Shown piece after piece: positions 850 to 17,471 of a stretch of 29,447 nucleotides of DNA. Source of the stretch: a virus; IMG/VR virus record IMGVR_UViG_3300023172_000132, positions 1 to 29,447 of that record; one strand, given 5' to 3'. The notes beneath the pieces were generated by a model that worked only from the letters and a program-made list of their open reading frames with translations, was not told the origin of the DNA and ran no database searches. Positions within the stretch are counted from its first letter, which is position 1. The number at the start of each line of letters is the position of its first letter. The position numbers and the translations under genes were made by a program.

Positions 850-1308
850 ATGGTAAATTGGTACGATAAAGTTTCTAAAGATATTTCAACTATACCAGAC
901 GCTATAAAGTATTTTGAGGATCAATTAATTGAAGCCAAGAAAGAAACAAACATAACTGGTAGGATTGAAAGAGCAGCATCGACCATGCCCTCCATAGTTG
1001 AAACCCGTTTCAGCCAATTACAGGAAATTGAAGCAATACTGGAGTATCTTAATATTGAATTAAGAAGATTACGTGCTTCACATTTCAGAAAATATGTTGA
1101 AAACTATCAAAGACAATTAAGTTCGAGAGATGCTGAAAAATTTGTTGACGGTGAGGCAGATGTTGTTGATTTTGAAAAAATTATCAACGAGTTTGCCCTC
1201 ATTCGTAACAAATGGCTTGGCATTATCAAGGGACTTGACATCAAGCAATGGCAACTCTCGAACATAGTGAAACTTAGAACAAGCGGCCTCGAAGACGCAA
1301 GTCTATAA
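850..1308 (+). CDS. uvsY: UvsY-like recombination mediator
   Basis: Probable 152-residue counterpart of T4 UvsY (137 aa), which helps UvsX displace the single-strand binding protein and load on ssDNA. The protein is almost entirely helical, with a conserved-looking core (LEYLNIELRRLR, then SSRDAEKFVDGEADVVDFE) and a basic C-terminal helix ending in WQLSNIVKLR. T4 UvsY has a comparable C-terminal segment after a tryptophan-containing helix. The assignment rests on size, composition, this pattern and position two genes after uvsX. There are no catalytic motifs. Its stop overlaps, tail to tail, the minus-strand gene that follows, leaving no room for a separate terminator. Confidence 0.7.
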   Translation: MVNWYDKVSKDISTIPDAIKYFEDQLIEAKKETNITGRIERAASTMPSIVETRFSQLQEIEAILEYLNIELRRLRASHFRKYVENYQRQLSSRDAEKFVDGEADVVDFEKIINEFALIRNKWLGIIKGLDIKQWQLSNIVKLRTSGLEDASL

Positions 1309-1713
1309 TTTACCTTCTTCCCTTAATTTTTTTCTAATATCGGTAGCACTGATGCTGTGAATTTCTTCACCTAAGTCGTGCTGTGTATATGTATAACCCA
1401 CACCTCGACCATATGAGATATCTACTATGTTAGGAACTTTCATAATAATATAATCTTCATTTTCACGGAAGTCCTCTTTCCACAACGCATCGATAATATT
1501 ATTCTTTACCTGTTCCCATTCAAAAGGATTATCATTTTGTGCTATGGTTCTTCCTGCTCCGGCATCTTCTCCAACGATACCTCCAACATCTCTTACCATG
1601 ATTACTACCTGACCAGTTTCAGCATATGCCTTTTTAAACAATGCTGTGTGGCCTGGGTGCCACGGTTGCCATCTACCTAACATCTCCGTAGTTGGCTTCT
1701 TCCAATCAAACAT
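1303..1713 (-). CDS. Cytidylyltransferase-like nucleotidylyltransferase
   Basis: A 136-residue HxGH-class nucleotidylyltransferase, the family that joins CMP or AMP to phosphorylated small molecules (for example glycerol phosphate, phosphopantetheine, sugar phosphates). The signature HPGH is at residues 19-22, preceded by GRWQPW, and the second nucleotide-binding signature ISATDIR is at 121-127, as in NadM/CoaD-like enzymes. Start ATG 1713 has AGAGGT just upstream. It follows a P-loop kinase gene on the same strand with a 2-bp gap, so the two probably act in sequence: phosphorylation of a precursor, then nucleotidyl activation. The substrate is not readable. The gene is convergent with the uvsY-like gene. 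Confidence 0.8.
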   Translation of the reverse strand: MFDWKKPTTEMLGRWQPWHPGHTALFKKAYAETGQVVIMVRDVGGIVGEDAGAGRTIAQNDNPFEWEQVKNNIIDALWKEDFRENEDYIIMKVPNIVDISYGRGVGYTYTQHDLGEEIHSISATDIRKKLREEGKL

Positions 1714-1715
1714 GT

Positions 1716-2147
1716 TTACCTCTGTTGTTTTTGCATGTAGTTTTTTACAACTTCTACCAGTTGAATATGAGTATCCTTAAACCATTCGGCTACATGATAA
1801 TCATACTGCCCTTTTTCTAAAGGCACAAACATTTTATTTGTGTCTTCGAATCTTCCTTCCTTAATGGTATCCATCCATACGACATAATCAGCACCAAACT
1901 CGTCACGTGCCTTTGGTGTAGGTGCTACAAAATCTGCCACACAGATTCTTCCTGCCTTAACAATACCATCAGCAAGATATTTCATGCGCTGTGCTTGTCT
2001 GATACGACCTTCGGGTGTAAAATCCCAATCATCATATTCAGTTCTAACAGCATCAGCATTGATCCATACAGCATTAATTAGTTTGGCAAATGGTTCTGCG
2101 AGCGTTGTCTTTCCGCTTCCAGGTAAACCACATATAAGAATTTTCAT
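1716..2147 (-). CDS. P-loop kinase resembling adenylylsulfate (APS) kinase
   Basis: A 143-residue small-molecule kinase. The Walker A motif GLPGSGKTT is at residues 7-15, followed by INADAVR (a CysC-like substrate-binding segment), an ADFVAPTP segment matching the SPFRAxR region of APS kinase, and a WMDTI strand. It is shorter than bacterial CysC (about 200 aa) and lacks some of the usual C-terminal region, so APS as substrate is uncertain; sugar or polyol kinases share this fold. Start ATG 2147 has AAAGGA at good spacing. It is the first gene of a two-gene minus-strand unit with the nucleotidylyltransferase and is divergent from the nucleotidylyltransferase/cupin fusion. Confidence 0.78.
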   Translation of the reverse strand: MKILICGLPGSGKTTLAEPFAKLINAVWINADAVRTEYDDWDFTPEGRIRQAQRMKYLADGIVKAGRICVADFVAPTPKARDEFGADYVVWMDTIKEGRFEDTNKMFVPLEKGQYDYHVAEWFKDTHIQLVEVVKNYMQKQQR

Positions 2148-2169
2148 ATTTTGATCCTTTTCACTTCTG

Positions 2170-2177
2170 TATTTACC
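2170..2177 (-). promoter_or_regulatory. T4-late-type promoter box (minus)
   Basis: GGTAAATA, read on the minus strand, matches the T4 late box TATAAATA at 6 of 8 positions. It lies about 23 bases before the kinase start at 2147. The expected transcript would carry a short leader with the AAAGGA ribosome binding site. It sits back to back with the plus-strand box at 2192. Confidence 0.4.
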
Positions 2178-2191
2178 AAATTAACTGCGTA

Positions 2192-2199
2192 CATAAATA
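2192..2199 (+). promoter_or_regulatory. T4-late-type promoter box (plus)
   Basis: CATAAATA differs from the T4 late box TATAAATA at one position. Five bases separate it from the ATG at 2205. T4 late transcripts start about six bases after the box, so initiation would fall at or next to the start codon. No clear ribosome binding site is seen upstream of this ATG. Confidence 0.5.
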
Positions 2200-2204
2200 T
2201 AAGC

Positions 2205-2972
2205 ATGAAAACGATTGTATTGGTAACTGGCGGCTTTGATCCGCTACATTCAGGACACATTGCATATTTCAAGGCTGCAAAAATCTTAGGTGATAGGCTT
2301 ATTGTAGGTTTGAATTCAGACGAGTGGTTAGAGCGCAAGAAGGGAAGAGCATTTATGCCTTGGAATGAGCGCCTTACTATTGTGAATAATTTGGAAATGG
2401 TTGATGAAACTTTTACATTTGTCGATGACGATGGTACAGCAAAGAATTTTATACGACAGGTAAGAGCGCACTACCCAGATGCACATTTAGTATTTGCTAA
2501 TGGAGGAGACAGAACTGCTAACAACATTCCAGAAATGGATGTAGAAGATGATAATCTATCATTTGAATTTGGTATTGGCGGCGAAGATAAAAAGAATTCG
2601 AGCAGTTGGATCTTAACCGAATGGAAGGCTCCAAAGACCGAAAGACAATGGGGTTATTATAGAGTGTTACATGAGTATGGTAATAAAGTAAAGGTTAAAG
2701 AATTAACTGTTGACCCAGGAAAGACTCTCAGCATGCAGAGACACAAGGACCGTGCTGAACATTGGTTCGTTGCGAAAGGAACAGCCACAGTCTATACCAT
2801 AGACACACAATCTACAGATTATGAATTGCACGGAACCTACAAGGAACACGAATCATTACACATAGATAACATGCAATGGCACATGCTTGCCAATGAAACT
2901 GATCAACCATTACAGGTTGTTGAAATTCAATACGGTGAAAACTGTGTTGAAGAGGATATTCAAAGAAAATGA
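2205..2972 (+). CDS. Fusion: cytidylyltransferase-like domain plus mannose-6-phosphate isomerase-type cupin
   Basis: A 255-residue two-domain protein. Residues 1-145 form a nucleotidylyltransferase domain with GGFDPLHSGH (HxGH at 15-18), as in glycerol-3-phosphate cytidylyltransferase or the nucleotidyl domain of HldE, ending in a SSSWIL segment that resembles the ISSTxI signature. Residues 150-255 match the cupin of type II mannose-6-phosphate isomerase: WGYYRVL, VKELTVDPGKTLSMQRHKDRAEHW, and a VVEIQYGENCVEEDI tail. In bacteria that cupin is usually fused to GDP-mannose pyrophosphorylase, so a different nucleotidyl partner is unusual. Start chosen at ATG 2205, just before the HxGH strand; the frame extends 18 codons upstream without support. 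It overlaps the first KpsS-like gene by 4 bp. Likely role: making an activated sugar or polyol. Confidence 0.83.
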   Translation: MKTIVLVTGGFDPLHSGHIAYFKAAKILGDRLIVGLNSDEWLERKKGRAFMPWNERLTIVNNLEMVDETFTFVDDDGTAKNFIRQVRAHYPDAHLVFANGGDRTANNIPEMDVEDDNLSFEFGIGGEDKKNSSSWILTEWKAPKTERQWGYYRVLHEYGNKVKVKELTVDPGKTLSMQRHKDRAEHWFVAKGTATVYTIDTQSTDYELHGTYKEHESLHIDNMQWHMLANETDQPLQVVEIQYGENCVEEDIQRK

Positions 2973-3772
2973 AAAATTGGATTTTTCTAAGTAAAGAAAA
3001 AAAGGATCCTTATGTAAACATGTTTGCACAAGGTTGTGGAACCAGTGTGATTGATTCAAACAAGTTTAAATACAACGACGAAGAAATGGAACCAATAGTC
3101 CTAAGAGGAATTCTTAAGAAAAAAATTATTCATAAGTGTTGGGAAAACGGTAGAGATTTTTATTACATTGATACTGGCTATTGGGGTAATGAAAGAACAA
3201 AAACTAATCCTAATGGCTGGAAGTATTGGCATAGAATTGTTAAAAATGATCTACAGCACGGCGAAATAAAAGAAAGACCGAGCGATAGATTTGAATTTTT
3301 TAATAAAAAATTTAGACCTTGGAAAAAGACAGGTAGAAAAATACTTGTTGCTGCTCCGGACGAAAAACCTTGTAAATTTTATGGTATTAATCTTGATGAT
3401 TGGATTGCAACAACAGTTGATACAATAAAAAGAAATACTGATAGGCCTGTAGAAATTAGACAAAGAACTAAACAGAGAATTGATAGATTAAACGATAGTT
3501 TAGAATCTGCACTTGACAATGATGTATTTGCATTAGTAACTTATAATTCAAATGCTGCCGTTGAATCGATATTCCATGGAATACCAGTTTTTACATTAGC
3601 ACCAGCAAATGCTGCAAAACCAGTTGGGCTGAGTGACTTAACAAAAATAAACGAGCCTTACTATCCGGACAAGGATAAATTACATGCGTGGGGATGCCAT
3701 TTATCATATGGACAATTTCACGTTAGTGAATTAAGTTCTGGTAAGGCAAAAAGAATACTGGAGGAACAATGA
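2969..3772 (+). CDS. KpsS/KpsC-like putative glycosyltransferase, paralogue 1 (subfamily A)
   Basis: A 267-residue member of a six-copy family in this window. The C-terminal half carries the capsule-synthesis (GT-B-like) signature YNSNAAVESIFHGIPVF at about 192-208, followed by a PYYPD segment and YGQFHVSEL..GKA near the end. The N-terminal half has the block RDFYYIDTGY, then WHRIVKN and PSDR, shared with the copies at 4451 and 5224. These three form subfamily A, which lacks the RPHP motif seen in the other three. Predicted role: sugar transfer in glycan assembly; donor and acceptor unknown. Every arginine codon I read here is AGA or AGG. It overlaps its neighbours by 4 bp on both sides. Confidence 0.72.
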   Translation: MKNWIFLSKEKKDPYVNMFAQGCGTSVIDSNKFKYNDEEMEPIVLRGILKKKIIHKCWENGRDFYYIDTGYWGNERTKTNPNGWKYWHRIVKNDLQHGEIKERPSDRFEFFNKKFRPWKKTGRKILVAAPDEKPCKFYGINLDDWIATTVDTIKRNTDRPVEIRQRTKQRIDRLNDSLESALDNDVFALVTYNSNAAVESIFHGIPVFTLAPANAAKPVGLSDLTKINEPYYPDKDKLHAWGCHLSYGQFHVSELSSGKAKRILEEQ

Positions 3773-4449
3773 AAGTATTTGTAGGATATGATCCAAGAGA
3801 GGATATTGCTTATCAAGTTTGTAAACACAGCATTGTAAGCAGAAACAAGGATGTGGAAGTACGTCCACTAATACAAAAAGATCTAAGAGAACAAGGATAC
3901 TATGATAGGCCTATTGATAAATTAGCATCAACAGAATTTACCTTTACAAGATTCCTCGTTCCTGAACTGTCTAACTTTAATGGCTGGGCATTGTTTATGG
4001 ACTGCGATATGATTTTACAAACGGATATTGCAGAATTATTTGCGCAGGCCGACGACAAGTATGCAGTAATGTGCGTTAAACACGATTATGCACCAAAAGA
4101 AGGTGTTAAGATGGACGGAAAGGCACAAACAGTATATCCAAGAAAAAATTGGTCCAGTGTGATGTTATTCAATTGTGGGCATCCAAGTAATCAAAATCTA
4201 AACGTGGAATTGATTAATGATCCTGAAATAACAGGAAAGTACCTACACAGGTTTAGTTGGTTAAAAGATGAAGAAATAGGCGAACTAAAACCAGAATGGA
4301 ATTGGCTGGCGGGTTGGTATAAGGAACCAGATGATGGTAAACCTAAGTTAATACACTATACCGAAGGCGGACCTTGGTTTGAAAATTACAGAACCTGTGA
4401 ATATCATAAAGAGTGGAAAAAAGAACTCTACGATATGATGGAAGGATAG
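3769..4449 (+). CDS. GT8-like glycosyltransferase
   Basis: A 226-residue GT-A fold glycosyltransferase resembling family 8 (LgtC/RfaJ type), which transfers a sugar from a nucleotide-sugar donor using a metal ion. The N-terminus MKVFVGYDPRED is a typical nucleotide-binding start. The metal-binding DxD is DCD at 78-80 within WALFMDCDMIL. The C-terminal HYTEGGPW at 196-203 corresponds to the HxxGxxKPW motif of GT8. It is shorter than cellular GT8 enzymes (about 300 aa) but the key motifs are present. It lies between two KpsS-like paralogues, overlapping the first by 4 bp and 1 bp from the second, so it probably works on the same glycan. Confidence 0.85.
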   Translation: MKVFVGYDPREDIAYQVCKHSIVSRNKDVEVRPLIQKDLREQGYYDRPIDKLASTEFTFTRFLVPELSNFNGWALFMDCDMILQTDIAELFAQADDKYAVMCVKHDYAPKEGVKMDGKAQTVYPRKNWSSVMLFNCGHPSNQNLNVELINDPEITGKYLHRFSWLKDEEIGELKPEWNWLAGWYKEPDDGKPKLIHYTEGGPWFENYRTCEYHKEWKKELYDMMEG

Positions 4450-4450: not shown

Positions 4451-5227
4451 ATGAAAGATAGATCGCTTGAAGAATCGTTAGTGGTTGGTTCAAAAGGAAA
4501 GTTTACTACCGATCCTGAAGAAAAAGATAAACCTTTAGTTGTTAGGGGAGTCATCAAGAAGGATCACGTAAACAGATGTATAGACATTAATAGAGATTTT
4601 TACTATATTGATACAGGATATGTTGGAAACTTTCCAAGTCCTGGAAATCCAAGCGGTAAAAAGGTTTGGCATAGAGTTGTAAAAAACGAAAATCAATTGT
4701 CCACGATAAGAAATGTTCCATCGGATCGCTGGGATGCATTGGCTAAACAGGATCCTCGACTTACTTGGAAGGGTTGGAAAAACTATAATAAAAAAATATT
4801 ATTAGTAATGCCTAATCCCAAGGCTTGCAAGTATTATAACTTTGATTATGATACCTGGGTAGCAGAAACAGAACAAAAAATAAAACAGTATAGTGATCTT
4901 CCTGTCGAAGTTAGAATTAAGGGAGCAAGAAGCGAAAGAAATAAGGGTTACACAATTTATGATGCATTTGATAGTGGAGTTTATGCTACCGTTGCTTTTA
5001 ACAGCATAGCGGCTCTTGAATCTGTACTATATGGTATTCCAGCATTTGTTAGCGTTCCCTGTGCGGCAAGTCCTTTAGCATCCACTGACCTTTCTCAGTT
5101 ATCAAACCCGTACAAGCCAGATCAACAAACCATACTAAAACAATGTTACAATATTGCATACGGACAGTTTACCATACAGGAAATTGAAAGCGGTAAGGCT
5201 GTAGAACTAATAGAAAGATACTCATGA
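4451..5227 (+). CDS. KpsS/KpsC-like putative glycosyltransferase, paralogue 2 (subfamily A)
   Basis: A 258-residue protein closely patterned on the product of the gene at 2969. It has RGVIKKDHVNRC, RDFYYIDTGYVGN, KVWHRVVKN and PSDRWDAL in the N-terminal half, then FNSIAALESVLYGIPAF and DLSQLSNPYKPD, and ends with YGQFTIQEIESGKA. The predicted donor-site HP motif is replaced by VEVRIKGARSER. It probably arose by tandem duplication around the intervening GT8-like gene. The start ATG 4451 follows the preceding stop by one base, with GGAAGG just upstream as ribosome binding site. Function as glycosyltransferase is inferred from the C-terminal motif only. Confidence 0.7.
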   Translation: MKDRSLEESLVVGSKGKFTTDPEEKDKPLVVRGVIKKDHVNRCIDINRDFYYIDTGYVGNFPSPGNPSGKKVWHRVVKNENQLSTIRNVPSDRWDALAKQDPRLTWKGWKNYNKKILLVMPNPKACKYYNFDYDTWVAETEQKIKQYSDLPVEVRIKGARSERNKGYTIYDAFDSGVYATVAFNSIAALESVLYGIPAFVSVPCAASPLASTDLSQLSNPYKPDQQTILKQCYNIAYGQFTIQEIESGKAVELIERYS

Positions 5228-6339
5228 AATTATTATTGAACAACAAAGAAATTGCACATTTCTTAAACTCATTATTATCATACAGCGGATATGTTAGACA
5301 GTATGAAATACAAACAAGATACATGTCCACGTTTCTTGATCTATGGGTTGGTAAAAGAAACAAGCAAATCGAAAGAGGGAAAGCCGAACCCTTAACCAAG
5401 GAAGAAAAGAAACAGTTCAAAGATAAATTACAAAAATCAATTAGACAGGATTTGAAAGAATACATTGATACCGTAACAACTACAATGCAGGATAAGAAGG
5501 TAGAAAACTTTCATAAAATACACACCTGCATTGAACAGTTCGTTGAAAAATTTGGTGAAGAGAAAATTTTTGAAGCATATAAGAACAGTAAATTTCGTGA
5601 ATTTGTAAAGGCAACTGGATTTAACATAGATCCCAATGCTCAGTTAATGAGAAGAAAAAACTTTACAAACTACGAAGAAGATTGTCTAATAAGAAATACA
5701 GTTGGTAACGAAGAATTGCTTGTCACCAAGATTGATAAGAAATATCCTTTTTGGTTTATTGATAGTGGATACACAAACTTTCTTGAGCCTAATAAAAAAT
5801 GGCACAGGCTCGTAAGGAATCATCTACACTACGGAGAGTATTTCCAAGCACCCACAGATAGGCTGGGCATTTTTAACAAATATCCCACTGATTGGAGAAA
5901 AGACGGAGATATAATTTATATTATTGAACCTGGACCCTTTGCAGCAAGTATTTTTCATTGCGATTTAAAAACTTGGAAGTATGATGTTGAAAAAGAACTT
6001 AGAAAATATACTGACAAGAAAATAAAATTTAGAGAAAAGAAGCCTCTGAGAGAAAGAACAAATCTTTTTGAAGAACTTAAAAATGATGATTATTATTGTG
6101 TGATCAGCATTAATTCAAATGCAGCAACAGAAGCCATTTGGGCAGGAGTTCCTGCAATCACTCTTGATAAACACGTAACAAATCCTGTGACCAAGAGCAG
6201 TCTTTCTGACATAAATGATTTATACTACGGTCCATTGGGCAATTGGTTAGCATTTCTAAGTTATAATCAATTTACCAAAGAAGAATTAATGAATGGCACA
6301 GCACATAAGTTAGTGAGTAAGTATAATGCCTCAGTATAA
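5224..6339 (+). CDS. KpsS/KpsC-like putative glycosyltransferase with extra N-terminal helical domain, paralogue 3 (subfamily A)
   Basis: At 371 residues this is the longest copy. About 130 extra N-terminal residues are charged and helical (for example LTKEEKKQFKDKLQKS), with no recognisable motif, and may serve as an oligomerisation or partner-binding region. From about residue 140 the subfamily A pattern appears: FWFIDSGYTN, KKWHRLVRNHLHYGEYFQAP, TDR, then INSNAATEAIWAGVPAI and SLSDINDLYYGPL, ending in YNQFTKEELMNGTA. The HP motif is absent (IKFREKKPLRERT in its place). It overlaps the preceding gene by 4 bp and the next by 14 bp. Confidence 0.68.
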   Translation: MKLLLNNKEIAHFLNSLLSYSGYVRQYEIQTRYMSTFLDLWVGKRNKQIERGKAEPLTKEEKKQFKDKLQKSIRQDLKEYIDTVTTTMQDKKVENFHKIHTCIEQFVEKFGEEKIFEAYKNSKFREFVKATGFNIDPNAQLMRRKNFTNYEEDCLIRNTVGNEELLVTKIDKKYPFWFIDSGYTNFLEPNKKWHRLVRNHLHYGEYFQAPTDRLGIFNKYPTDWRKDGDIIYIIEPGPFAASIFHCDLKTWKYDVEKELRKYTDKKIKFREKKPLRERTNLFEELKNDDYYCVISINSNAATEAIWAGVPAITLDKHVTNPVTKSSLSDINDLYYGPLGNWLAFLSYNQFTKEELMNGTAHKLVSKYNASV

Positions 6340-7249
6340 AGCAGTAGCATATATCAGCGGAATTCCTTCAAGGAATAATAATCCAGAAAAACCTATGATT
6401 CTTAATAACTTCATTGAAGGAGTTAACAAGAGTGGAGATATAGGAGTGTTACATCAGGGGTTTAATGTTATTGAAAGTGATGTTGCACTTATACAAGGAT
6501 TTGTACACGAACACGGTAAGACTGCTCCTCACCTTGTGTTAAGACAAAACGCAGTAAATTTTCAAAAGCAAAGAAATAAAAAATCTCTCATAGTTGACAG
6601 TAATTTATTTTTGTATGCAGATCCAGGCAATTCAAAAAGATATTTAAGATACAGTTTTGATGGAGTATTTCCAACAACAGGATTTTATTTTGATAAGGAT
6701 GTTGATCCAACAAGATGGCAAAAGATAAGTGCTAATCTAAGTTTACAACTTAAACCTTGGAGACAGAGTGGCGAACACATCTTGCTCTGTTTACAAAGGA
6801 ATGGTGGTTGGTCTATGAAGGGTCTTCACGTAATGCAATGGATGGACAGCATTATAACCGAAATTAGAAAATACAGCCAAAGACACATTATAGTGAGAGC
6901 GCATCCTGGAGATAAAAAATCACACACATATCTTCGTATCAATCATCCTAATGTTTCATTAAGCAACAAGCCTAACATTAAACACGATTTAGAAAAAGCA
7001 TGGGCAACTGTTGTATATAATAGTTCACCAAGTGTAGCAAGTATTATTGAGGGTGTACCTGCATTTATAACTGATCCTCAACCTGAATATAGCCAAAGCA
7101 AGGAAGTTGCTAATACGGATTTATCTAAAATAGAAAATCCAGAATTACCTGAAAGACAACAATGGATAGAAAAACTTGCCATGTGCCATTGGAACTTTGA
7201 TGAACTAAAAAGTGGCGAAGCGTGGCAATTTTTTAGAAAGTATCTTTAA
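6326..7249 (+). CDS. KpsS/KpsC-like putative glycosyltransferase, paralogue 4 (subfamily B)
   Basis: A 307-residue capsule-synthesis-like protein. It has the subfamily B features: EHILLCLQRNGGWS strand, IIVRAHPGDKK (the R-x-HP motif typical of KpsS/CDP-glycerol transferase-like GT-B enzymes), VYNSSPSVASIIEGVPAF, DLSKIENPELPERQQW and a C-terminal CHWNFDELKSGEAW. That C-terminal pattern is shared with the copies at 8531 and 15011. The start codon lies 14 bp inside the preceding gene. It is the last gene of the plus-strand block, and its stop overlaps the stop of the minus-strand gene at 7246 by 4 bp. Confidence 0.74.
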   Translation: MPQYKAVAYISGIPSRNNNPEKPMILNNFIEGVNKSGDIGVLHQGFNVIESDVALIQGFVHEHGKTAPHLVLRQNAVNFQKQRNKKSLIVDSNLFLYADPGNSKRYLRYSFDGVFPTTGFYFDKDVDPTRWQKISANLSLQLKPWRQSGEHILLCLQRNGGWSMKGLHVMQWMDSIITEIRKYSQRHIIVRAHPGDKKSHTYLRINHPNVSLSNKPNIKHDLEKAWATVVYNSSPSVASIIEGVPAFITDPQPEYSQSKEVANTDLSKIENPELPERQQWIEKLAMCHWNFDELKSGEAWQFFRKYL

Positions 7250-8094
7250 CTAAATTGTTGCCAGTAAGGTTCAGTTCTGGGAACTTTTAAATCATCTCTC
7301 TTACTCTTTCCAAGTGTTTTTCTACCACCCTTGAGATGATCAAGATATGCTCCCCAATCACTATTAATTAATGGATGTCCTTCTCCCTTAGAAGTATTAG
7401 GACTTGCTCTAAGGTCACCTAAGTTTTCAGACCAACTTAGTTGATTTAGATTATTAAATCTCTGTCTAACTATATCAAATACATAACTATCATGCCATTC
7501 AGCCATCGAAAATATTCCGCCAGTTCCTTCAGCATCATCGTAAACTCTTTGAAATTCTTTTAAAAATTCTTTTGTATTATCACTGTTTAATCTCATTGCG
7601 TATAGTCCACACTCGCTATACTTTCCTTTCCTTCCAAGATAACACAGTTCTTTTTTTCCAGGAAGAAATCTTCCAAGATCTTTTAATGTAATTTTACTAT
7701 GACAGAAAGTGTCAGCATCCATCCAAAACAACCAATCGCTGCCACACTCATTAGCACAGGAAAATATACTATAAACCTTGTGTGCAAATCTAATAGCATT
7801 CCATTTAAATCCTTTACCGCTATCTCTTCTTTTATTTCTTATCGGATCAGAACTAACATCACCATTTGCCTTAGGAACATTTTTCCATCTCTCCTTAAAG
7901 GCCACAAGTTCCGGACTTGCAGAATGAAGGTCCTTGATTATTAAATTAGGTGCCGATTCTTCCACCTGACAGTCTTCTGCATATACATACAATTTAATTT
8001 CTTCTGGCCAGTTTTCTAAAAAGGATTTAATCATCCTCTTTCCATATAAATCATATCCAGGCTTATGAAATGTTGTTACTACACTTATACTCAT
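7246..8094 (-). CDS. GT-A-like glycosyltransferase, paralogue of the gene at 13588
   Basis: A 282-residue predicted transferase. It starts with a GT-A-like strand (MSISVVTTFH), has a probable metal-binding DAD at 126-128 in WLFWMDADTF, and the block YLGRKGKYSECGLYA followed by EWHDSYVFD. The same blocks occur in the 13588 product (YLGRKGNYSECGFLA, ETHDSFLFD), and KNVPKANG matches its KDHPKANG, so the two are homologues. I start at ATG 8094, which forms an ATGA overlap with the preceding minus-strand stop and has GGAAGAAAG upstream; an ATG at 8109 is less likely. The exact family and sugar are not identified. Confidence 0.75.
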   Translation of the reverse strand: MSISVVTTFHKPGYDLYGKRMIKSFLENWPEEIKLYVYAEDCQVEESAPNLIIKDLHSASPELVAFKERWKNVPKANGDVSSDPIRNKRRDSGKGFKWNAIRFAHKVYSIFSCANECGSDWLFWMDADTFCHSKITLKDLGRFLPGKKELCYLGRKGKYSECGLYAMRLNSDNTKEFLKEFQRVYDDAEGTGGIFSMAEWHDSYVFDIVRQRFNNLNQLSWSENLGDLRASPNTSKGEGHPLINSDWGAYLDHLKGGRKTLGKSKRDDLKVPRTEPYWQQFS

Positions 8095-8497: not shown

Positions 8498-8505
8498 GTT
8501 AAATA
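8498..8505 (+). promoter_or_regulatory. T4-late-type promoter box (plus)
   Basis: GTTAAATA followed directly by CTATG resembles the extended T4 late consensus TATAAATACTATT. It would give a leader of about 20 bases carrying AGGAAA before the ATG at 8531. Confidence 0.42.
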
Positions 8506-8514
8506 CTATGCGAA

Positions 8515-9413: not shown

Positions 9414-9419
9414 GTAGTT

Positions 9420-10595: not shown

Positions 10596-12036
10596 ACTTA
10601 TAATAAAGGATGAAGTCAACATCAAATTTGAAGGGTTGGCTGTTGAGACACGAAGAAAGATCGTTAATAAATTAAAATACGATCTGCCTTATGCTCGACA
10701 CATGCCAGCATTTAAACTTGGAAGATGGGACGGAACCGTAAGTTTCTTTGGTATTGGTGGCAATGGATTTCTTGCACACCTTGACATCATATTACCTATA
10801 GTTGAGAATGACGGTTATGATATTGAAGTTATTGATAACAGAAATAACGAACAATTTTCTTTTGATGAAATAACTGAAAACTATTGGGCAGATCAAAATA
10901 AAGTATGGCCAAAAGGACATCAACTTGAAGGCCAGCCTATCGTACTAAGAGATTATCAGTATGATGTTGTTAATCAGTTTTTAAAAAATCCACAATCTTT
11001 ACAAGAAGTTGCGACAGGTGCTGGTAAAACAATTACCACAGCAACGTTAAGCCATTTATGCGAGCCGTATGGTCGAACTATGGTAATTGTTCCTAATAAG
11101 AGTCTTGTGGTACAAACCGAAGAAGACTATAAAAACTTAGGATTGGATGTTGGTGTATATTTTGGTGACCGCAAAGAATTAAATCATACACACACAATTT
11201 GTACTTGGCAAAGTCTTAATGTATTAGACAAAAAGAGTTATGATAGCGATAGTTTAACACTCGCAGAATTTACAGAAGGTGTAAGAGCTGTCATAATTGA
11301 TGAAGTCCATCAAGCCAAAGCCGATGTTCTTAAAAAGTTACTAACAGTTAATTTTAGAAATGCGCCTATTAGATGGGGATTAACTGGAACCGTACCAAAG
11401 GAACAATGGGAATTCCAAGGCATACTTGCAGGAATAGGTCCGGTGATTAACAATGTATCCGCACACGATCTACAGGAAAAAGGAGTGCTGGCTAAACTTG
11501 ACATACAAATACTACAAACAAAGGATATTGAAGAATTCCGTAACTATCAGGAAGAATATACTTGGTTAGTTACTGACGAGAAAAGATTAAGATACATCGG
11601 TGATCATGTAAAAGCGGTTGCTAAGAATGGTAACACGCTTGTCTTGGTCAATAGAATCGATACTGGCAAAAAACTATTAAAGAACGTACCGGAAGCAACA
11701 TTTATTAAGGGAGATGTGAAACTTGACGAACGCAAAGAACAGTATGACGAAATTAAAACTTCGGATGGTAAAATCATTATTGCCACTTACGGTGTTGCTG
11801 CTGTGGGTATTAATATTCCAAGAATTTTTAATCTCGTCCTCATTGAGCCTGGCAAGTCTTTTGTTAGAGTAATTCAAAGTATAGGCCGCGGAATTAGAAA
11901 AGCAGAAGACAAAGACTTTGTGCAAATTTGGGATATAACATCAACCTGCAAATATGCAAAAAGACATTTAACAGAAAGAAAAAGATTTTATAGAGAGGCG
12001 AAATATCCTCACACAGTCACAAAGGTAAACATATGA
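10582..12036 (+). CDS. uvsW: UvsW superfamily 2 helicase
   Basis: RNA-DNA and DNA-DNA helicase of the T4 UvsW type, which unwinds R-loops and branched DNA and helps the switch to recombination-dependent replication. The 484 residues carry an N-terminal UvsW-like domain (FKLGRWDGTVSFF, comparable with the T4 YGNWDGRIRLL segment), Walker A ATGAGKT at 144-150, DEVH at 240-243, LTGT at 267-270, and motif VI QSIGRGIRK around 432-440. Length is close to T4 UvsW (about 500 aa). Translation begins at TTG with a strong upstream ribosome binding site. The stop overlaps the FkbM methyltransferase start by 4 bp. Confidence 0.95.
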   Translation: MSNCKLIIKDEVNIKFEGLAVETRRKIVNKLKYDLPYARHMPAFKLGRWDGTVSFFGIGGNGFLAHLDIILPIVENDGYDIEVIDNRNNEQFSFDEITENYWADQNKVWPKGHQLEGQPIVLRDYQYDVVNQFLKNPQSLQEVATGAGKTITTATLSHLCEPYGRTMVIVPNKSLVVQTEEDYKNLGLDVGVYFGDRKELNHTHTICTWQSLNVLDKKSYDSDSLTLAEFTEGVRAVIIDEVHQAKADVLKKLLTVNFRNAPIRWGLTGTVPKEQWEFQGILAGIGPVINNVSAHDLQEKGVLAKLDIQILQTKDIEEFRNYQEEYTWLVTDEKRLRYIGDHVKAVAKNGNTLVLVNRIDTGKKLLKNVPEATFIKGDVKLDERKEQYDEIKTSDGKIIIATYGVAAVGINIPRIFNLVLIEPGKSFVRVIQSIGRGIRKAEDKDFVQIWDITSTCKYAKRHLTERKRFYREAKYPHTVTKVNI

Positions 12037-12671
12037 ACAGATATCCAATAGAGCCAACATCATTCAAAGAAAATCCTTATAGTTGGGATTGGTATGAAAA
12101 GGATTATTTTATTAGCAAGGATGGAGTTGGAGAATATCCAGAACATCATTGTAAAGTAACCTGGATTGAAAGTTTGCCTTTTATTACTAACAGAAGGAAC
12201 GCTGTTGATATAGGGTGTAGAGATGGTGAATATGCAAGATATCTCCATAAAGATTTTGAGCATGTATTTTGTTTTGATTATAGAAGAAGAAAACTTTTTC
12301 ATAAAAATGTTGATTTAAAAAAAATTACACACTTCAAGTGTGCATTAGGAGACAAGCATGCCGTGGAAAAAGTTAGTGGTGGAGGAAGTATGACCACTGG
12401 AAAAATTCCTAAGGAAAAATGGTATGATGAACAATTTTATACACTTGACGAATTTAATTTAGAGAATGTTGATTACATTAAGATAGACGTAGATGGTTAC
12501 GAATTAAAAGTTTTAAAAGGCTGCATAGAAACTATTCAAAAATTCAATCCTATACTTGTAATTGAACAGGAGCGTGGCGAGGAAAGAGCGATAAAATGGT
12601 GTGAGGATCTTGGGTACGAAATTGCTGCCTGGGATAACACTCACAGAAATGTTATAATGAGGAAAAAATAA
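12033..12671 (+). CDS. FkbM-family SAM-dependent methyltransferase
   Basis: A 212-residue class I methyltransferase. Motif I is VDIGCRDGEY at 58-67 and the FkbM-type block YIKIDVDGYELKVLKG is at about 148-163, followed by PILVIEQ. FkbM enzymes O-methylate sugars or related hydroxyl groups, and in phages and bacteria they are common in polysaccharide clusters. It is inserted directly behind uvsW with a 4-bp overlap and followed by a 1-bp overlap with a conserved phage gene, so it appears to be a cargo gene within the replication operon. The acceptor is unknown. Confidence 0.85.
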   Translation: MNRYPIEPTSFKENPYSWDWYEKDYFISKDGVGEYPEHHCKVTWIESLPFITNRRNAVDIGCRDGEYARYLHKDFEHVFCFDYRRRKLFHKNVDLKKITHFKCALGDKHAVEKVSGGGSMTTGKIPKEKWYDEQFYTLDEFNLENVDYIKIDVDGYELKVLKGCIETIQKFNPILVIEQERGEERAIKWCEDLGYEIAAWDNTHRNVIMRKK

Positions 12672-13215: not shown

Positions 13216-13578
13216 ATGACTATGAAAGCAGGAAAAATTTGGGGTCAGACGGAATTGATCCATGCAAACGGTGTGCTTGAGTTTCACCGTATTGAGTTTA
13301 AAAAAGGATATAAGTGTTCAGAACACGAGCATCGTTACAAGTGGAATGGCTTCTTTGTGGAGTCAGGCAAAATGATTGTGCGTGTATGGCAAGACGCTGA
13401 CCAAGAAGGCTTGGTAGATGAAACAGTCCTTGGTCCGGGTGAGTTCACACAAGTTAAGCCTGGTAAAATTCATCAGTTTGAAGGTGTAGAAGACGGTGTG
13501 GCATTTGAACTATACTGGGCAGAATTCAACCACGATGATATCGTAAGAAGAACGATTGGTACAGCAGTAAAAAAATAG
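13216..13578 (+). CDS. Single-domain cupin
   Basis: A 120-residue cupin. The first metal-binding cluster is SEHEHRYKWN with two histidines and a downstream glutamate, and the second is PGKIHQF with one histidine, separated by a GPGEFTQV turn, which is the normal two-motif cupin barrel. Cupins of this size act as sugar-phosphate isomerases or epimerases, dioxygenases or ligand binders; no closer assignment is possible. It has a strong ribosome binding site, unlike most overlapping neighbours, and uses CGT for several arginines, as uvsX and gp41 do, which suggests higher expression or a different history from the surrounding glycan genes. Confidence 0.82.
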   Translation: MTMKAGKIWGQTELIHANGVLEFHRIEFKKGYKCSEHEHRYKWNGFFVESGKMIVRVWQDADQEGLVDETVLGPGEFTQVKPGKIHQFEGVEDGVAFELYWAEFNHDDIVRRTIGTAVKK

Positions 13579-13587
13579 GTGAAGCGA

Positions 13588-14334
13588 ATGGAGTATAACG
13601 TACTCACAAGTGTTAATGCTCGTTACTGGAATGAAATTGCAAAACAAACAGTTACTGAATTAGATAAGAACTGGATTAAGGGTTCCAAGATATACCTATT
13701 CCACGAACTGGATGATAAAACTGTTGAGCAAGAAAAGAAAAATTTTAGTAATAGAGTAATTTGGATTGACCTTTACAAGGCAGTTCCTCGACTGCCTGAA
13801 TTTAAAGAAAAGTGGAAGGATCATCCAAAAGCAAACGGAACTATGGGGTGGAGACAGCATGCCATTAAATGGGTACACAAGACATTTCCATTACTACAAA
13901 CAGCATATGCACAGAAAGACGGTTGGTTAATATGGCTGGACTGCGATGCATTATGCTTTAAACCGATTGATAAACAATTCCTTGACACCGTGTGTAAACC
14001 TAACAAGATATTAGGATACCTTGGTAGAAAAGGAAATTACAGTGAGTGTGGTTTCCTTGCATTTAATCTCAACAAAAAAGAAACAAAAGATTTTATCGAA
14101 CACTGGAATAAAATTTACGATGGTGAATTTGTAAATATTAGTGAAACACACGATTCGTTCTTATTTGATGCTGTGAGAAAATCGTTTAACAAACCGGATT
14201 TATTTGATGATTTAAATGCACACTCAAAAACTAATAAGAATCCATTTGGCAACAGCCGAATAGGTTCGCACTTTTGGCACGGTAAGGGTGATGGAAAAGC
14301 CAAGCAATTAGCAAAGGCAAAATTAAGAAGATGA
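13588..14334 (+). CDS. GT-A-like glycosyltransferase, paralogue of the gene at 7246
   Basis: A 248-residue predicted transferase with a probable DxD (DCD at 118-120 in WLIWLDCDALCF), YLGRKGNYSECGFLAFNLN, and ETHDSFLFDAVRKSF. KEKWKDHPKANG and the two blocks after it match the minus-strand gene at 7246. I start at ATG 13588, with AGGTGAAG upstream, rather than the GTG at 13579 next to the cupin stop. The C-terminus ends in a basic stretch (KAKLRR) after an HFWHGKGDGKA segment that may be the GT8-like H-x-G-x-x-K closing motif. It overlaps the TylF-like gene by 4 bp. Confidence 0.78.
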   Translation: MEYNVLTSVNARYWNEIAKQTVTELDKNWIKGSKIYLFHELDDKTVEQEKKNFSNRVIWIDLYKAVPRLPEFKEKWKDHPKANGTMGWRQHAIKWVHKTFPLLQTAYAQKDGWLIWLDCDALCFKPIDKQFLDTVCKPNKILGYLGRKGNYSECGFLAFNLNKKETKDFIEHWNKIYDGEFVNISETHDSFLFDAVRKSFNKPDLFDDLNAHSKTNKNPFGNSRIGSHFWHGKGDGKAKQLAKAKLRR

Positions 14335-15014
14335 TAATAATTGATAAACACAACTACAACATACAGCACTTTCATGATGCTCAACAAATAACACAGAATA
14401 TTCCTTTTGAACAGATGAAGTTTGAATATGCTGTTAATGAAAGATTAAATCATTTGAAACATTCAATGGAGCAAGTAAAAATTGCTGGAAGTATATTGGA
14501 ATTTGGTGTTTATCAAGGTACTACTATCAACGAAATTAGTTCTTTCTTTTCAGAAGATACCGTGCATGGTTTTGATAGTTTTGAAGGATTGCCTGAGAAC
14601 TGGATTACACGAAATAAAGAAAGATACAAGAATAGAATTAAGCGTCCTAAGGGATTCTTTGCCTTAGATCAATTACCGGAAGTAAACAAAAATGTTAAAT
14701 TATGGAAGGGATGGTTTGATCAAACAATTATAAAATATAAGCAGGAAGAAAATCCAAAGCAGATTAAATTTCTTCATGTAGATGGTGATCTATATGGTAG
14801 TGCAAAAGTTATATTTGATAATTTGTCACACTGCATAATTCCTGGAACCATAATTGTATTCGATGAATTTTATCCTTGGGGTCCGACTGTTTATGACACA
14901 TGGGCCGATCACGAATACTTGGCGTTTAAAGAATTTGTTGAAAAAGAAAATAGACAGTTTACAATTATAAGCAGGAATAATCATCAACAAACTTGTGTAA
15001 AAATTATTAAATGA
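14331..15014 (+). CDS. TylF/MycF-like O-methyltransferase
   Basis: A 227-residue class I methyltransferase of the macrocin-O-methyltransferase type, which methylates sugar hydroxyls using SAM and a divalent metal. Motif I ILEFGVYQGTT is at 55-65, HGFDSFEGLPENW at 79-91 is diagnostic of the family, the metal-site block HVDGDLY is at 149-155, and IIVFDEFYPWGP follows at 174-185. Length is normal for the family (220-260 aa). It overlaps both neighbours by 4 bp, between a GT-A-like and a KpsS-like gene, which makes a sugar substrate likely. Confidence 0.88.
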   Translation: MIIIDKHNYNIQHFHDAQQITQNIPFEQMKFEYAVNERLNHLKHSMEQVKIAGSILEFGVYQGTTINEISSFFSEDTVHGFDSFEGLPENWITRNKERYKNRIKRPKGFFALDQLPEVNKNVKLWKGWFDQTIIKYKQEENPKQIKFLHVDGDLYGSAKVIFDNLSHCIIPGTIIVFDEFYPWGPTVYDTWADHEYLAFKEFVEKENRQFTIISRNNHQQTCVKIIK

Positions 15015-15925
15015 AAATAGTAGCAATAAAAGAACTAATGTGGACTTATCATCCTATTCCCTCGTCTGTAGAGGTTGTTGATTTTTCTAATAAGAAAAAA
15101 ATTAATTCTGCGGACATATTGTTACAAACAAATATTAAGGGCGGCAAGAGAGAAAAGAAACTTGGAAACATCTATCAATATGTAATAGATAGCGGTAAAC
15201 CTTTTATATGTGTAGAGTCAGCAGTGTTTAGAAGAAACATGCCAACACCACCACATCCTATGGCATATCATAGATGGAGTTGGACCAGTTATTTTCAAGA
15301 TGATGGAGATTATTGCAACAACAATAGCCCTTCTGATAGATGGGATCAAATCAGAACTGATCAGAACATAGAAATAAAAGAATGGAATGCCTCGGGAGAT
15401 TATATTCTTGTTGTATTACAAAGACCCGGCGATACGAGCCTAACTAAATTAATTGCCAAGCACGGAAGTTATGAAAACTTTGTGTCCTATACAATAAATG
15501 AAATTAGAAAAAATACTGATAGAAAGATAGTAATTAGACCGCATCCAAGCAGAAAAGATGCACAAATAAAAATTATCGAATCATTAAATCTTAAGGGTAT
15601 TAGAATTAGTGATACACCGTCAAAAGAAGGTTCCATATCAGGAGGTGACGGTTTATATAAAGATTTCAGCAATGCATATGCAGTTGTAGGATTTAATTCA
15701 AATGCACTAACAGAAAGTGTATGTGAAGGAATACCAACTTTTAGTATGTGTCCAAGTTCAATGGCATGGGATGTTTCAAATAAGTCTTTGCAATATCTTG
15801 AAAATCCTATTTTGTTTGAAAGACAACAGTGGTTAAATAATCTTGGTTATTGCCAATGGAGAGAAGATGAATGCTTGGAAGGCAAACCTCTTACACACTT
15901 ATTAAAAAAATATTCGGAGAAATAA
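15011..15925 (+). CDS. KpsS/KpsC-like putative glycosyltransferase, paralogue 6 (subfamily B)
   Basis: A 304-residue member of the family. Recognisable blocks are PFICVESAVFRRNM, YILVVLQRPGDTSL, KIVIRPHPSRKDA (donor-site HP motif), VGFNSNALTESVCEGIPTF, SLQYLENPILFERQQWLNNL and CQWREDECLEGKPL. It is closest in plan to the copy at 6326, although separated from it by almost 8 kb and the uvsW unit. It overlaps the TylF-like gene by 4 bp and directly abuts the GSCFA gene. It probably adds a residue to the same type of glycan as the first cluster. Confidence 0.78.
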   Translation: MKIVAIKELMWTYHPIPSSVEVVDFSNKKKINSADILLQTNIKGGKREKKLGNIYQYVIDSGKPFICVESAVFRRNMPTPPHPMAYHRWSWTSYFQDDGDYCNNNSPSDRWDQIRTDQNIEIKEWNASGDYILVVLQRPGDTSLTKLIAKHGSYENFVSYTINEIRKNTDRKIVIRPHPSRKDAQIKIIESLNLKGIRISDTPSKEGSISGGDGLYKDFSNAYAVVGFNSNALTESVCEGIPTFSMCPSSMAWDVSNKSLQYLENPILFERQQWLNNLGYCQWREDECLEGKPLTHLLKKYSEK

Positions 15926-16882
15926 ATGGCAGGATCAAAACAAAAACTTGCACACGTGGCAGCAAATACTTCAGCAAGTGGTAAAGCATCAGCAGGAGAT
16001 ATCGGAAAAGAAAAATGGGCAACAAATGACCTAATAAGATTCTTTCCAAGAACCAAAGAAGAGTTTGACGATGTTGAAAAATTAGCAACAGACTATGTGT
16101 TTGCGGAACACGGACCAGAAAAACCAATTTTTACAAATGAGTCAAAAGTATTAACCATGGGCTCATGTTTTGCAATGGAACTTAGATTAGCACTTAAAAG
16201 TTTGCAGAAAAAAAGCGAATACATTCAGGTTCCTGAAGGATTGAATAATTCATTTGCTGTCAGACAGTATCTTGAATGGGCATTAACTGGTGATCGAAGT
16301 TCAGATGCTTATTGGTATGACAACGATCCTAATGCAGGAGCATTTAAATGGGAACCCGAAGAAGAACAGAAAAAATTATTAGAAGCATTTAAGAAAACTG
16401 ATGCATTTGTTGTTACTTTTGGACTGGCAGAAGTATGGAGGGATAAGAAAACCAAAGGAGTTTTTTGGAGAGGCGTTCCTATGAAACTTTTTGATCCTGA
16501 AATACATGAATGTGTTACATCTACAGTTCAAGAAAATGTTAATAACATGAAAAGAATTTATGACTTAATTAAACAGTATGCCGGATCTGATAAGAAAATT
16601 ATTTTTACGTTAAGTCCTGTTCCTCTTAATGCTACTTTTTTAGGAAGACCAACAATAGTAAGTGATTGTGTGAGCAAATCAATATTAAGAGTTGCACTTG
16701 ACGAGTTTTTTAAAACTCATCAACCAAAGGACTCGTATTACTGGCCAAGTTACGAAATGGTAAGATGGGTTGGGTCTCATCTTGACTTTCCAACTCTCTA
16801 TGAAGATGATACACCGCGCCACGTAAAAAGATCTATAGTCAACATAATAATTAAAAACTTTGTTAAGAAGTTTTTTGTATAG
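15926..16882 (+). CDS. GSCFA-family protein (SGNH-like)
   Basis: A 318-residue protein containing the name-giving motif GSCFA at 79-83 (SKVLTMGSCFAMELR), followed by NNSFAVRQYLEWAL, a TFGLAEVW block, and TLSPVPLNATF, as in the GSCFA family, which is distantly related to SGNH/GDSL hydrolases. The first 30 residues are low-complexity and Ala/Gly/Ser-rich. Family members are mostly uncharacterised and often occur in polysaccharide loci, where an acyl-ester hydrolase or transferase role is plausible. GGAGAA precedes the ATG 15926. Here it sits between a glycosyltransferase-like gene and a methyltransferase gene. Confidence 0.85.
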   Translation: MAGSKQKLAHVAANTSASGKASAGDIGKEKWATNDLIRFFPRTKEEFDDVEKLATDYVFAEHGPEKPIFTNESKVLTMGSCFAMELRLALKSLQKKSEYIQVPEGLNNSFAVRQYLEWALTGDRSSDAYWYDNDPNAGAFKWEPEEEQKKLLEAFKKTDAFVVTFGLAEVWRDKKTKGVFWRGVPMKLFDPEIHECVTSTVQENVNNMKRIYDLIKQYAGSDKKIIFTLSPVPLNATFLGRPTIVSDCVSKSILRVALDEFFKTHQPKDSYYWPSYEMVRWVGSHLDFPTLYEDDTPRHVKRSIVNIIIKNFVKKFFV

Positions 16883-16895
16883 GAGAAAAAATAAA

Positions 16896-17471
16896 ATGCT
16901 GTCTTTCGAAGAGTACAAACAAAAAATGACAGAGATCGCCATGCGATATGACAAAAAATATCGTGGAGCAAAATACGTTAGAAGATGGGATCGTTTTTGG
17001 AATGAAAAAACACACATCCTTGAAGTATGCGGTCTTGATTCTAATGATAAGAGTGTCTTAGACATTGGAACGGGTGTCGGTATGCTTCCATATCTACTGA
17101 TGCAAAAAGGATATGAAGTTGAAGGAACTGATATCACTGAAGATATTACAGGAAAAATGTTTATTGAATGTTGTGAACTAATAAATTTAAAAAGATTTGA
17201 ATTATGGATCAAACCTAACGAATCTATGAATTTACCAAGAAAGTATGACATGATTATGTCCACAAGAACTGAATTTGATAGACAGGAAGGGTTTGATTGG
17301 AAGTATTTTCTGGATGATTGTTTTAAGTTTGCCAATAAAGTTTTTATTAAAACCAATAACGGAGGTAAATCCGTAGGTTATCCAGATTATCTACAACCTT
17401 TTATCGAAAGGCACGAAGCCATTTGTATCAAGGTTAACAAACAACAGTGGGAGGAACAAAATGCTGCATAA
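16896..17471 (+). CDS. Class I SAM-dependent methyltransferase
   Basis: A 191-residue methyltransferase-like protein. Motif I VLDIGTGVGMLPYLLMQKGY spans 54-73, then VEGTDIT supplies the acidic residue that usually binds the SAM ribose. The motif IV region, YDMIMSTRTEF, lacks a clear catalytic signature, so the substrate is unknown. I start at ATG 16896 with AGGAG upstream; the longer frame from 16860 lies inside the GSCFA gene. It overlaps the next small gene by 11 bp. The position at the end of the glycan block suggests a sugar-modifying role. Confidence 0.82.
   Translation: MLSFEEYKQKMTEIAMRYDKKYRGAKYVRRWDRFWNEKTHILEVCGLDSNDKSVLDIGTGVGMLPYLLMQKGYEVEGTDITEDITGKMFIECCELINLKRFELWIKPNESMNLPRKYDMIMSTRTEFDRQEGFDWKYFLDDCFKFANKVFIKTNNGGKSVGYPDYLQPFIERHEAICIKVNKQQWEEQNAA

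Follow-up and report, generated by a model that had tools for sequence, protein, structure and literature searches.

The 29,447-base window analysed here is a complete IMG/VR virus record (IMGVR_UViG_3300023172_000132), itself a genome fragment, and carries a glycan island (positions 1303-18225) on what is a piece of a T4-related jumbo phage. We read the island as a late, soluble glycan-assembly cassette of an aquatic jumbo phage, the product of which most likely decorates the phage's own virion, at the tail fibres or the capsid, and we rate this at slightly better than an even chance. Phage glycan clusters are already known, and the usual explanation of those with glycosyltransferases, drawn by analogy, is editing of the host surface or modification of DNA. 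In the present case, the sequence alone yields a clue to timing, namely that the cassette shares its start signals with virion genes: a putative T4-type late-promoter motif is found at its operon heads but hardly at the adjoining replication genes. The island is therefore interleaved with replication genes in space, as an earlier note on this DNA had described, yet apparently not in regulation. In the open-access literature that we searched, we did not find descriptions of a cassette with such a variable slot, of a family resembling transferases of 3-deoxy-D-manno-oct-2-ulosonic acid (Kdo) that lacks their nucleophile, or of late-promoter evidence of this kind. Gene labels are those of Table 1, K1 to K6 being the six open reading frames (ORFs) that the earlier note had called KpsS/KpsC-like.

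Start signals of the glycan operons

The motif was scored as TAAATA no more than 60 nucleotides (nt) upstream of a start, in loci less than 80% identical to each other. Counted in this way, it precedes NTcup in 23/25 loci (4.0 expected), h8091 in 15/18 (3.1) and K5 in 20/29 (2.7), and it is likewise found upstream of a virion structural gene (12/16) and of h21161 (18/20). Hardly any backbone gene has it (uvsX 1/32, uvsY 0/43, h9390 0/37, uvsW 1/39, gp41 0/21, 'gp62' 1/27, the DnaE-like gene 0/25); the primase gene shows an early-type promoter word in 13/20 loci, and the cassette-internal genes K1, GT8, K2, K3 and K4 together have TAAATA in 1/155. The divergent spacer between h8091 and K5 contains TAAATA-type motifs on both strands in all 23 unique usable spacers, with 0.2 expected and 11 loci left out of the count. 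Exact TATAAATA is not enriched in the window alone (2 found, 3.4 expected), so that the signal comes from place and conservation. Upstream of NTcup, the motif ends exactly 5 nt before the ATG in 35 of 39 unique sequences (the NTcup alignment began at window position 2211, two codons past the ATG at 2205). Given the usual start point of T4 late transcripts relative to their motif, the message would begin at the ATG itself, and NTcup is predicted to have a conserved leaderless late mRNA.

Word enrichment over 154 gene-upstream regions of C57, a 335-kb contig that also carries the island, brought out, unasked, GGTTGACA with TGCTATACT (the early word) and GATAAATA (the late word). ATAAATA is present in 44 of these regions against 11.6 expected, and the late pattern in 61/154 against 19/154 when they were reverse-complemented. 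Gene classes were compared for 48 of the 54 late-motif and 24 of the 29 early-motif genes, leaving out those below 75 amino acids (aa) or touching the end of a stretch and, from the early set, the HldE-like gene at L241:14572-15708. Among the best 25 of 63 PHROG families of the late set are tail tube, tail sheath, baseplate wedge, tail fibre, virion protein and endolysin; among the best 25 of 28 of the early set are late sigma factor, single-strand-binding protein and SbcD-like nuclease, one baseplate/fibre-connector gene being the exception. Products of at least 400 aa come from 12/54 late and 1/29 early genes (p 0.028), and those of at least 900 aa from 6 and 0, respectively (p 0.087). T4 gp55 has a match in 7/7 records (E 1e-6 to 1e-5). 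By their gene classes and these gp55 matches, the two words thus behave as late and early promoters. A looser early pattern was set aside as evidence, being noisy inside coding sequence.

Among relatives free of the island, L111, L113 and L115 show a late-like motif between uvsY and h9390-uvsW, and PA5oct shows one immediately upstream of uvsW (L132 also belongs to the relatives with a motif at or near the junction); none was seen at the uvsY/uvsW junction of L118, L119 and Phosso. A takeover of an older uvsW late promoter by the island is no more than suggested by these loci, and the cassette may have settled at an old boundary between early and late genes.

A recurrent cassette and a variable slot

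For comparison, 80 viral loci were retrieved by K1 and 42 by the C2H2-like protein, several of them near-identical or from the same contig, and gene order was followed over interval ORFs of at least 80 aa. This comparison, which the earlier note had proposed as a check, revealed a conserved cassette next to a variable slot. The uvsY-uvsW interval is complete in 53 loci, window and C57 included; 43 of these, some near-identical, hold at least two K genes (exactly five in 32), and ten, namely Phosso, PA5oct and eight other virus contigs, hold none. The 80 loci having been selected by K1, no frequency of the island among such phages in general can be read from these shares. Most often, the order is NTcup, K1, GT8 (or GT8, K1), K2, K3, K4 and, optionally, an FkbM-like gene, with GTA1 and h8091 following on the opposite strand and then K5, h9390 and uvsW; the CysC-NTa pair is optional. 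Such an arrangement is not due to chance, as the gene order recurs over many contigs and reading frames are kept (median ratio of nonsynonymous to synonymous substitution rates, dN/dS, about 0.1). Most loci carrying h8091 have it adjoining GTA1. Two loci (L071, L073) contain two K genes but four GT-A-type genes in this interval, a different balance of the same toolbox.

The second interval, from h12671 to 'gp62', is complete in 47 loci and measures 19 to 8,701 bases. Its genes after the cupin vary greatly between relatives, other sugar genes filling the slot, and GTA2, TylF, K6, GSCFA and MT3 of the window have at most one full-length relative each, with many of the compared loci ending before the slot. 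Considering the best 25 of 65 partly overlapping Pfam families in 144 of the 154 deduplicated variable ORFs from both intervals, Methyltransf_23 occurs in 23, epimerases in 14, GDP-mannose-dehydratase-like proteins in 13, FkbM in 12, Polysacc_synt_2 in 11, glycosyltransferase family GT25 in 7, UDP-sugar dehydrogenases and sulfotransferases in 5 each, Asn-synthase-type amidotransferases in 4 and GT29 in 3. K6 and GSCFA form a movable pair, found upstream of NTcup in C57, where K and GT-A profile matches are confined to the island. NTa and CysC match the second and first half of phrog_10255 'kinase' (E 3.3e-36 and 9e-22 for the pair) and resemble two halves of this single fused phage protein; the pair recurs in four gammaproteobacterial loci and sits elsewhere, downstream of the C2H2-like gene, in L100, L104 and C57.

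The backbone of the window runs uvsX, uvsY, uvsW, h12671, C2H2-like protein, DnaE-like fragment, virion protein, primase and gp41, an order matching that of the jumbo phages Phosso (469 kb), PA5oct (287 kb) and the fetched part of SCTP-2 (440 kb), with some genes lacking a match in some of them. The best isolate matches of uvsW and the C2H2-like protein are jumbo phages, e.g. Phosso, Atu_ph07, PA5oct and SCTP-2, rather than small marine T4-like phages. None of the window's glycan genes was found by tblastn in the fetched stretches of Phosso, PA5oct and SCTP-2. We count h9390 as backbone rather than island because it adjoins uvsW also in island-free relatives. The label gp62 for positions 18473-18940 is unverified, since the sole match is a PHROG without assigned function. 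Besides, positions 20372-20950 encode 192 aa with similarity to a portion of the DNA polymerase III alpha subunit (phrog_11778, E 6e-62), a protein also present in Phosso, SCTP-2 and PA5oct, and positions 19807-20379 an alpha/beta-hydrolase-like protein (Pfam E 2e-4, below cut-off) without a relative among the compared loci.

The K family and its partner enzymes

A single tblastn search with K1 recovers all six K ORFs, and the K1 fold agrees with the earlier KpsS/KpsC-like label; however, five of the six have lost the catalytic Asp that defines such enzymes. The family has no PHROG match and no match to Pfam PF05159; Pfam gave sub-threshold matches only (K1 to a DUF6716 glycosyltransferase, E 0.037; K3 to an irrelevant family, 0.083), and a profile search of PDB sequences was of no use either. 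The Kdo-transferase label of K1 hence rests on the fold search. With the K1 model (mean pLDDT 96, built from 62 sequences), Foldseek placed retaining Kdo transferases at ranks 1-21 (E 6e-6 to 4e-3, TM only 0.36-0.53) and VIA at ranks 1-15 (Z 9.6-11.4, root-mean-square deviation (rmsd) 4.2-5.3 over 211-238 residues), the margin to the next row (Z 9.3) being modest. From its model, K1 is predicted to adopt the GT-B fold of retaining beta-Kdo transferases. Best matches in the viral structure library BFVD were proteins of uncultured phages, of the Caulobacter phage CcrColossus and four of Tetraselmis virus 1, two of the latter named capsule polysaccharide biosynthesis. With at least four proteins of K1-like fold, Tetraselmis virus 1, a giant virus of an alga, exemplifies multi-copy use in an unrelated large virus.

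A tree of 56 rows resolves K1 to K5 into one group each (support 90/99 for K1, 98/92 to 100/100 for the others), K1-K3 falling on one side and K4-K6 on the other; the 'K1' of C57 groups with K2. According to passages of PMC10148158, KpsC and WbbB rely on a His, a Glu and an Asp nucleophile, the latter within an invariant QXXXD motif. At the QXXXD column, Asp is found in 0/52 K1, 0/39 K2, 0/33 K3, 0/40 K4 and 0/38 K5 sequences, so that K6 alone keeps it; among K1-K5, the Gln is retained in K4 and K5, and K1 has an invariant Asp (52/52) one position past the Gln column. The His-Pro (HP) motif, whose His protonates the cytidine monophosphate (CMP) phosphate, is present in K4 (40/40) and K5 (38/38) and absent from K1-K3, where R-x-R or R-x-K replaces it. 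K4 mostly reads QRNGG with HPGD (His, Pro, Gly and Asp in 40/40) and K5 QH..S with RPHPR, and the K1, K2 and K3 stretches are mostly P-D-E-K-P, P-N-P-K and P-G-P-F, the catalytic columns there being devoid of Gln, Asp and His. K6 has QRPGD, RPHP and a Glu in the window and QRPGD, MHP and Glu in C57; we infer from its position, not from a structure alignment, that this Glu may be the catalytic base.

Median dN/dS of K1-K5 is 0.09-0.12 (8-10 pairs each, synonymous sites often near saturation), that of uvsW 0.04. On these estimates K1-K5 are under purifying selection and, considering their fixed signatures as well, they look like working proteins with a Kdo-transferase fold and changed chemistry, five natural experiments in how this fold works without its nucleophile. 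Tentatively, and at less than an even chance, the K core could represent five paralogous GT-B families derived from Kdo transferases minus the nucleophile, which would act with other chemistry or donors in a late, serotype-like locus for a virion glycan of aquatic jumbo phages. If true, they would constitute novel glycosyltransferase families dedicated to the sugar coat of a virus.

Regarding the remaining enzymes, the ORFs lie where the earlier note had put them and its list is right in substance by Pfam and PHROG checks, including the fourth methyltransferase and the carbamoyltransferase further on. The families behind its two nucleotidylyltransferases and isomerase cupin were all found; however, NTcup carries both cytidylyltransferase-like and ManC-type cupin domains, so that the second nucleotidylyltransferase and the cupin are one protein. 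In a profile search, the nearest solved relatives of NTcup were ethanolamine-phosphate and glycerol-3-phosphate cytidylyltransferases and a nucleotidyltransferase of lipopolysaccharide (LPS)-core type. SAR11 genomes keep an NTcup relative in one place outside any glycan locus (L147 and six other loci), the order in L147:7191-12037 being polA, NTcup relative and a major facilitator superfamily (MFS) transporter. The two GT-A-like enzymes proved homologous (36% identity), and the first was modelled as GT-A (pLDDT 92). In GTA1, D131 and D133 of the DxD motif are invariant in 27 sequences; the best Foldseek match is an alpha-1,3-galactosyltransferase (E 8e-9), and VIA aligns the model to BoGT6a with Z 14.2 and rmsd 3.3 over 187 residues. 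Its structural neighbours include a capsid glycosyltransferase of chlorovirus PBCV-1 (Z 13.7), in a broad tie with many GT6 rows. GTA1 is, on its model, a GT-A glycosyltransferase. The structure search that the earlier note had asked for thus placed K1 with retaining Kdo transferases and GTA1 with GT-A enzymes.

Table 1. Features of the glycan island and its surroundings (window positions)
Feature	Position	Strand	Basis
NTa, weak nucleotidylyltransferase, optional CysC partner	1303..1713	-	Pfam E 0.0033 (below cut-off); phrog_10255 second half; 14 full-length relatives in fetched loci
CysC, adenosine phosphosulfate (APS)-kinase-like P-loop kinase, optional	1716..2147	-	Pfam E 4.6e-9; phrog_10255 first half
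Late-type motif GGTAAATAC upstream of CysC	2169..2177	-	TAAATA here in 4/9 diverged loci
Late-type motif CATAAATA, 5 nt upstream of NTcup ATG	2192..2199	+	23/25 diverged loci; 5-nt gap in 35/39 unique upstream sequences
NTcup, cytidylyltransferase-like domain fused to ManC-type cupin	2205..2972 (ORF from 2151)	+	Pfam E 9e-13 and 3e-23
K1, Kdo-transferase-like fold (predicted) without QxxxD Asp or HP His	2969..3772	+	tblastn, structure model, alignment columns
GT8-family glycosyltransferase	3769..4449	+	Pfam E 1.3e-7
K2	4451..5227	+	tblastn with K1, alignment columns, tree
K3	5224..6339	+	tblastn with K1, alignment columns, tree
K4, HP His present, QxxxD Asp absent	6326..7249	+	tblastn with K1, alignment columns, tree
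GTA1, GT-A glycosyltransferase (modelled) with DxD	7246..8109	-	alignment, structure model, structure search
h8091, small conserved protein adjoining GTA1	8091..8489	-	no Pfam or PHROG match
Divergent late-type motifs	8498..8522	GTTAAATA +, 8498-8505, to K5; TATAAATA -, 8515-8522, to h8091	TAAATA on both strands, 23/23 spacers
K5, HP His present, QxxxD Asp absent	8531..9388	+	tblastn with K1, alignment columns, tree
h9390, backbone gene by uvsW	9390..10595	+	occurs in relatives without island
FkbM methyltransferase	12033..12671	+	Pfam E 6e-11
Small cupin, opens variable slot	13216..13578	+	Pfam E 4e-7; 33 full-length relatives
GTA2, GTA1 homologue (36% identity)	13579..14334	+	sequence comparison
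TylF-type methyltransferase	14331..15014	+	Pfam E 3e-14
K6, full Kdo-transferase signature (QRPGD, RPHP, a Glu)	15011..15925	+	alignment columns
GSCFA protein, moves with K6	15926..16882	+	Pfam E 4e-33; C57 gene order
MT3, weak methyltransferase match	16860..17471	+	Pfam E 1e-4, below cut-off
MT4, methyltransferase	17668..18225	+	Pfam E 1.5e-10
Carbamoyltransferase (NodU/TobZ type), outside island, without own late motif	23749..25221	+	Pfam E 1e-54

Probable virion decoration and its alternatives

Neither interval contains an ORF with at least two predicted membrane helices (0/547 and 0/211 ORFs of at least 80 aa, redundant sets; prediction by hydropathy only, an MFS control scoring 10, and genes elsewhere in phage or host not being covered), so that no flippase, exporter or Wzy polymerase was seen there. 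Together with the late-type motif, this lack of membrane proteins favours virion decoration: for a soluble set with the promoter class of virion genes, the simplest role is virion protein glycosylation. The decorated-polysaccharide pathway of the earlier note can accordingly be upheld as a glycan pathway, given the predicted glycosyltransferase folds and the slots of nucleotide-sugar enzymes, sulfotransferases and methyltransferases, but not as a polysaccharide pathway, no polymerase being seen; and among its three proposed outcomes, virion decoration is favoured and host-surface editing possible, while DNA hypermodification lost support.

In a putative scheme, the cassette would be transcribed late, as the motif statistics suggest, and NTcup, with the optional CysC-NTa pair, would make an activated sugar or alditol. 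GT8, GTA1/2 and the GT-B family K1-K6 would then build an oligosaccharide within the cytosol, directly onto a phage protein, with methyltransferases, GSCFA and, elsewhere, sulfotransferases and deoxy-sugar enzymes capping and varying the glycan; the carbamoyltransferase may contribute as well. The variable slot would be read from the late promoter upstream of K5, and, as in O-antigen loci, an exchange of outer genes would give a different exposed sugar on an unchanged core. In the isolate CcrColossus, a K-like gene lies amid other glycosyltransferase genes (its neighbours are annotated as sialyltransferase-like, nucleotide-diphospho-sugar transferase and GT9) between a tail gene and endolysin-holin-spanin genes, a setting that, by analogy, would fit virion glycosylation. 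In Pelagibacter phage Mosig, K, GT8, GT-A and FkbM genes sit together in a small cluster, accompanied by an annotated sulfotransferase.

Several points weigh against virion decoration. The acceptor is putative; the evidence from the motif is of a statistical kind, and late changes of the host surface would fit the same timing. CysC has TAAATA in a minority of loci (4/9, 1.2 expected), and the variable-slot cupin (2/19) and the carbamoyltransferase (0/11) mostly or wholly lack a late motif of their own. In the island of C57, no cassette gene has an exact TAAATA within 60 nt, NTcup showing just a one-letter variant, ATAAGTA, at the same place, and the HldE-like sugar gene and a UDP-glucose dehydrogenase-like gene of this contig have an early-type motif. 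Furthermore, published readings of similar clusters, in passages of PMC7029224 and PMC7824862, favour host-surface editing.

Under that explanation, the enzymes would alter lipid-linked LPS or capsule precursors from the cytosolic side late or midway in infection, and host exporters would carry the glycan out, blocking superinfection or re-adsorption of progeny. Apart from having been inferred for similar clusters in these pelagimyophage and jumbo-phage surveys, it agrees with KpsC-like folds belonging to capsule and LPS synthesis, and the serotype-like variability of the slot fits selection on surface glycans. Yet the cassette shares the promoter class of virion genes, the two intervals showed neither a membrane protein nor a lipid-carrier enzyme or exporter, and late changes leave little time for exclusion, which is why we consider host-surface editing unlikely, albeit a real contender. 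We regard it as improbable that the cassette yields a soluble product, be it a small glycoside, nucleotide-sugar or signal, or remodels the host sugar pool: NTcup has single-gene SAR11 relatives outside any glycan locus and K1-K3 lack known catalytic residues, but several predicted glycosyltransferases and variable capping genes resemble an assembly line on an acceptor.

Addition of sugars to modified bases of the phage DNA, finally, is what glycosyltransferases of T4 and its relatives do (PMC6024577; T4 a-gt annotation), and the island sits among replication genes. Against this stand the virion-type promoters before the cassette and the lack of a match to a thymidylate-synthase-family hydroxymethylase in 10 related records and C57, which may be incomplete; besides, a passage of the survey PMC7029224 reports restriction-modification in just one of more than 100 SAR11 genomes, which would count only with a SAR11 host. 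DNA hypermodification therefore appears very improbable.

As to the host, an assignment by NTcup relatives (SAR11, SAR86 and other bacteria) was rejected, since 78 of 79 such loci lack K, GT8 or GTA genes nearby and the exception, L141, is itself phage-like. The K profile had no match in seven bacterial genomes carrying NTcup relatives, and the K family was found in 3/398 Pseudomonadota genomes drawn. PF05159, above cut-off in 3/53 genomes of one Pelagibacter-type family, gave no lead. L141 belongs to C57, which is filed in a Neomarinimicrobiota metagenome-assembled genome and was treated as phage sequence, not as host evidence; a second contig of this assembly (C77) has the same uvsW and fusion gene. 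C57 also has a second sugar cluster (L241:40-15708, about 260-276 kb) beside a 2125-aa ORF and short tail-fibre-looking ORFs, with a weak GT9 match, a carbamoyltransferase, a haloacid dehalogenase (HAD) phosphatase, a cupin, an epimerase, a 2-oxoglutarate (2OG)-Fe oxygenase and an HldE-like PfkB-cytidylyltransferase fusion, of which a 50% identical relative exists in two other records. Two adjoining inner-membrane permease genes (BPD_transp_1) are found at L228:15060-17160 of the same contig.

If virion decoration is true, large aquatic phages would, like some giant viruses, be covered by a variable sugar coat of their own making, with a bearing on host range, particle decay and competition between phages. 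Virion glycosylation by virus-encoded glycosyltransferases acting on structural proteins is reported for mycobacteriophages. The likeness to these and to PBCV-1 lies in the virus-encoded glycosyltransferases, whereas the present locus has other enzyme families, many more genes and a putative acceptor. Passages of PMC7029224 and PMC7824862 describe pelagimyophage and jumbo cyanophage clusters in which, like here, phage-borne glycosyltransferases, nucleotidyltransferases and sugar-modifying enzymes vary between phages. GT8 is given there as the commonest glycosyltransferase of pelagimyophages, with 63/162 LPS-related proteins in the tail-fibre hypervariable region (PMC7029224); here, we instead see a fixed uvsY-uvsW cassette, a six-member Kdo-transferase-like family and a late-type motif. 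With the retaining Kdo transferases KpsC, WbbB and KrkA (GT107 and GT99 are named in passages of PMC10148158), K1 shares the predicted fold and K6 the QxxxD, His-Pro and Glu, whereas K1-K5 lack the Asp nucleophile, K1-K3 also the Gln and His, and K1 is shorter. Group 2 capsule (kps) loci have the KpsC-like fold in common with the island, which differs in having no KpsM-type exporter in either interval. With the gp55-dependent T4 late regulon, finally, it shares the TATAAATA-type motif and the gp55 matches, except that here the motif appears to drive glycan genes.

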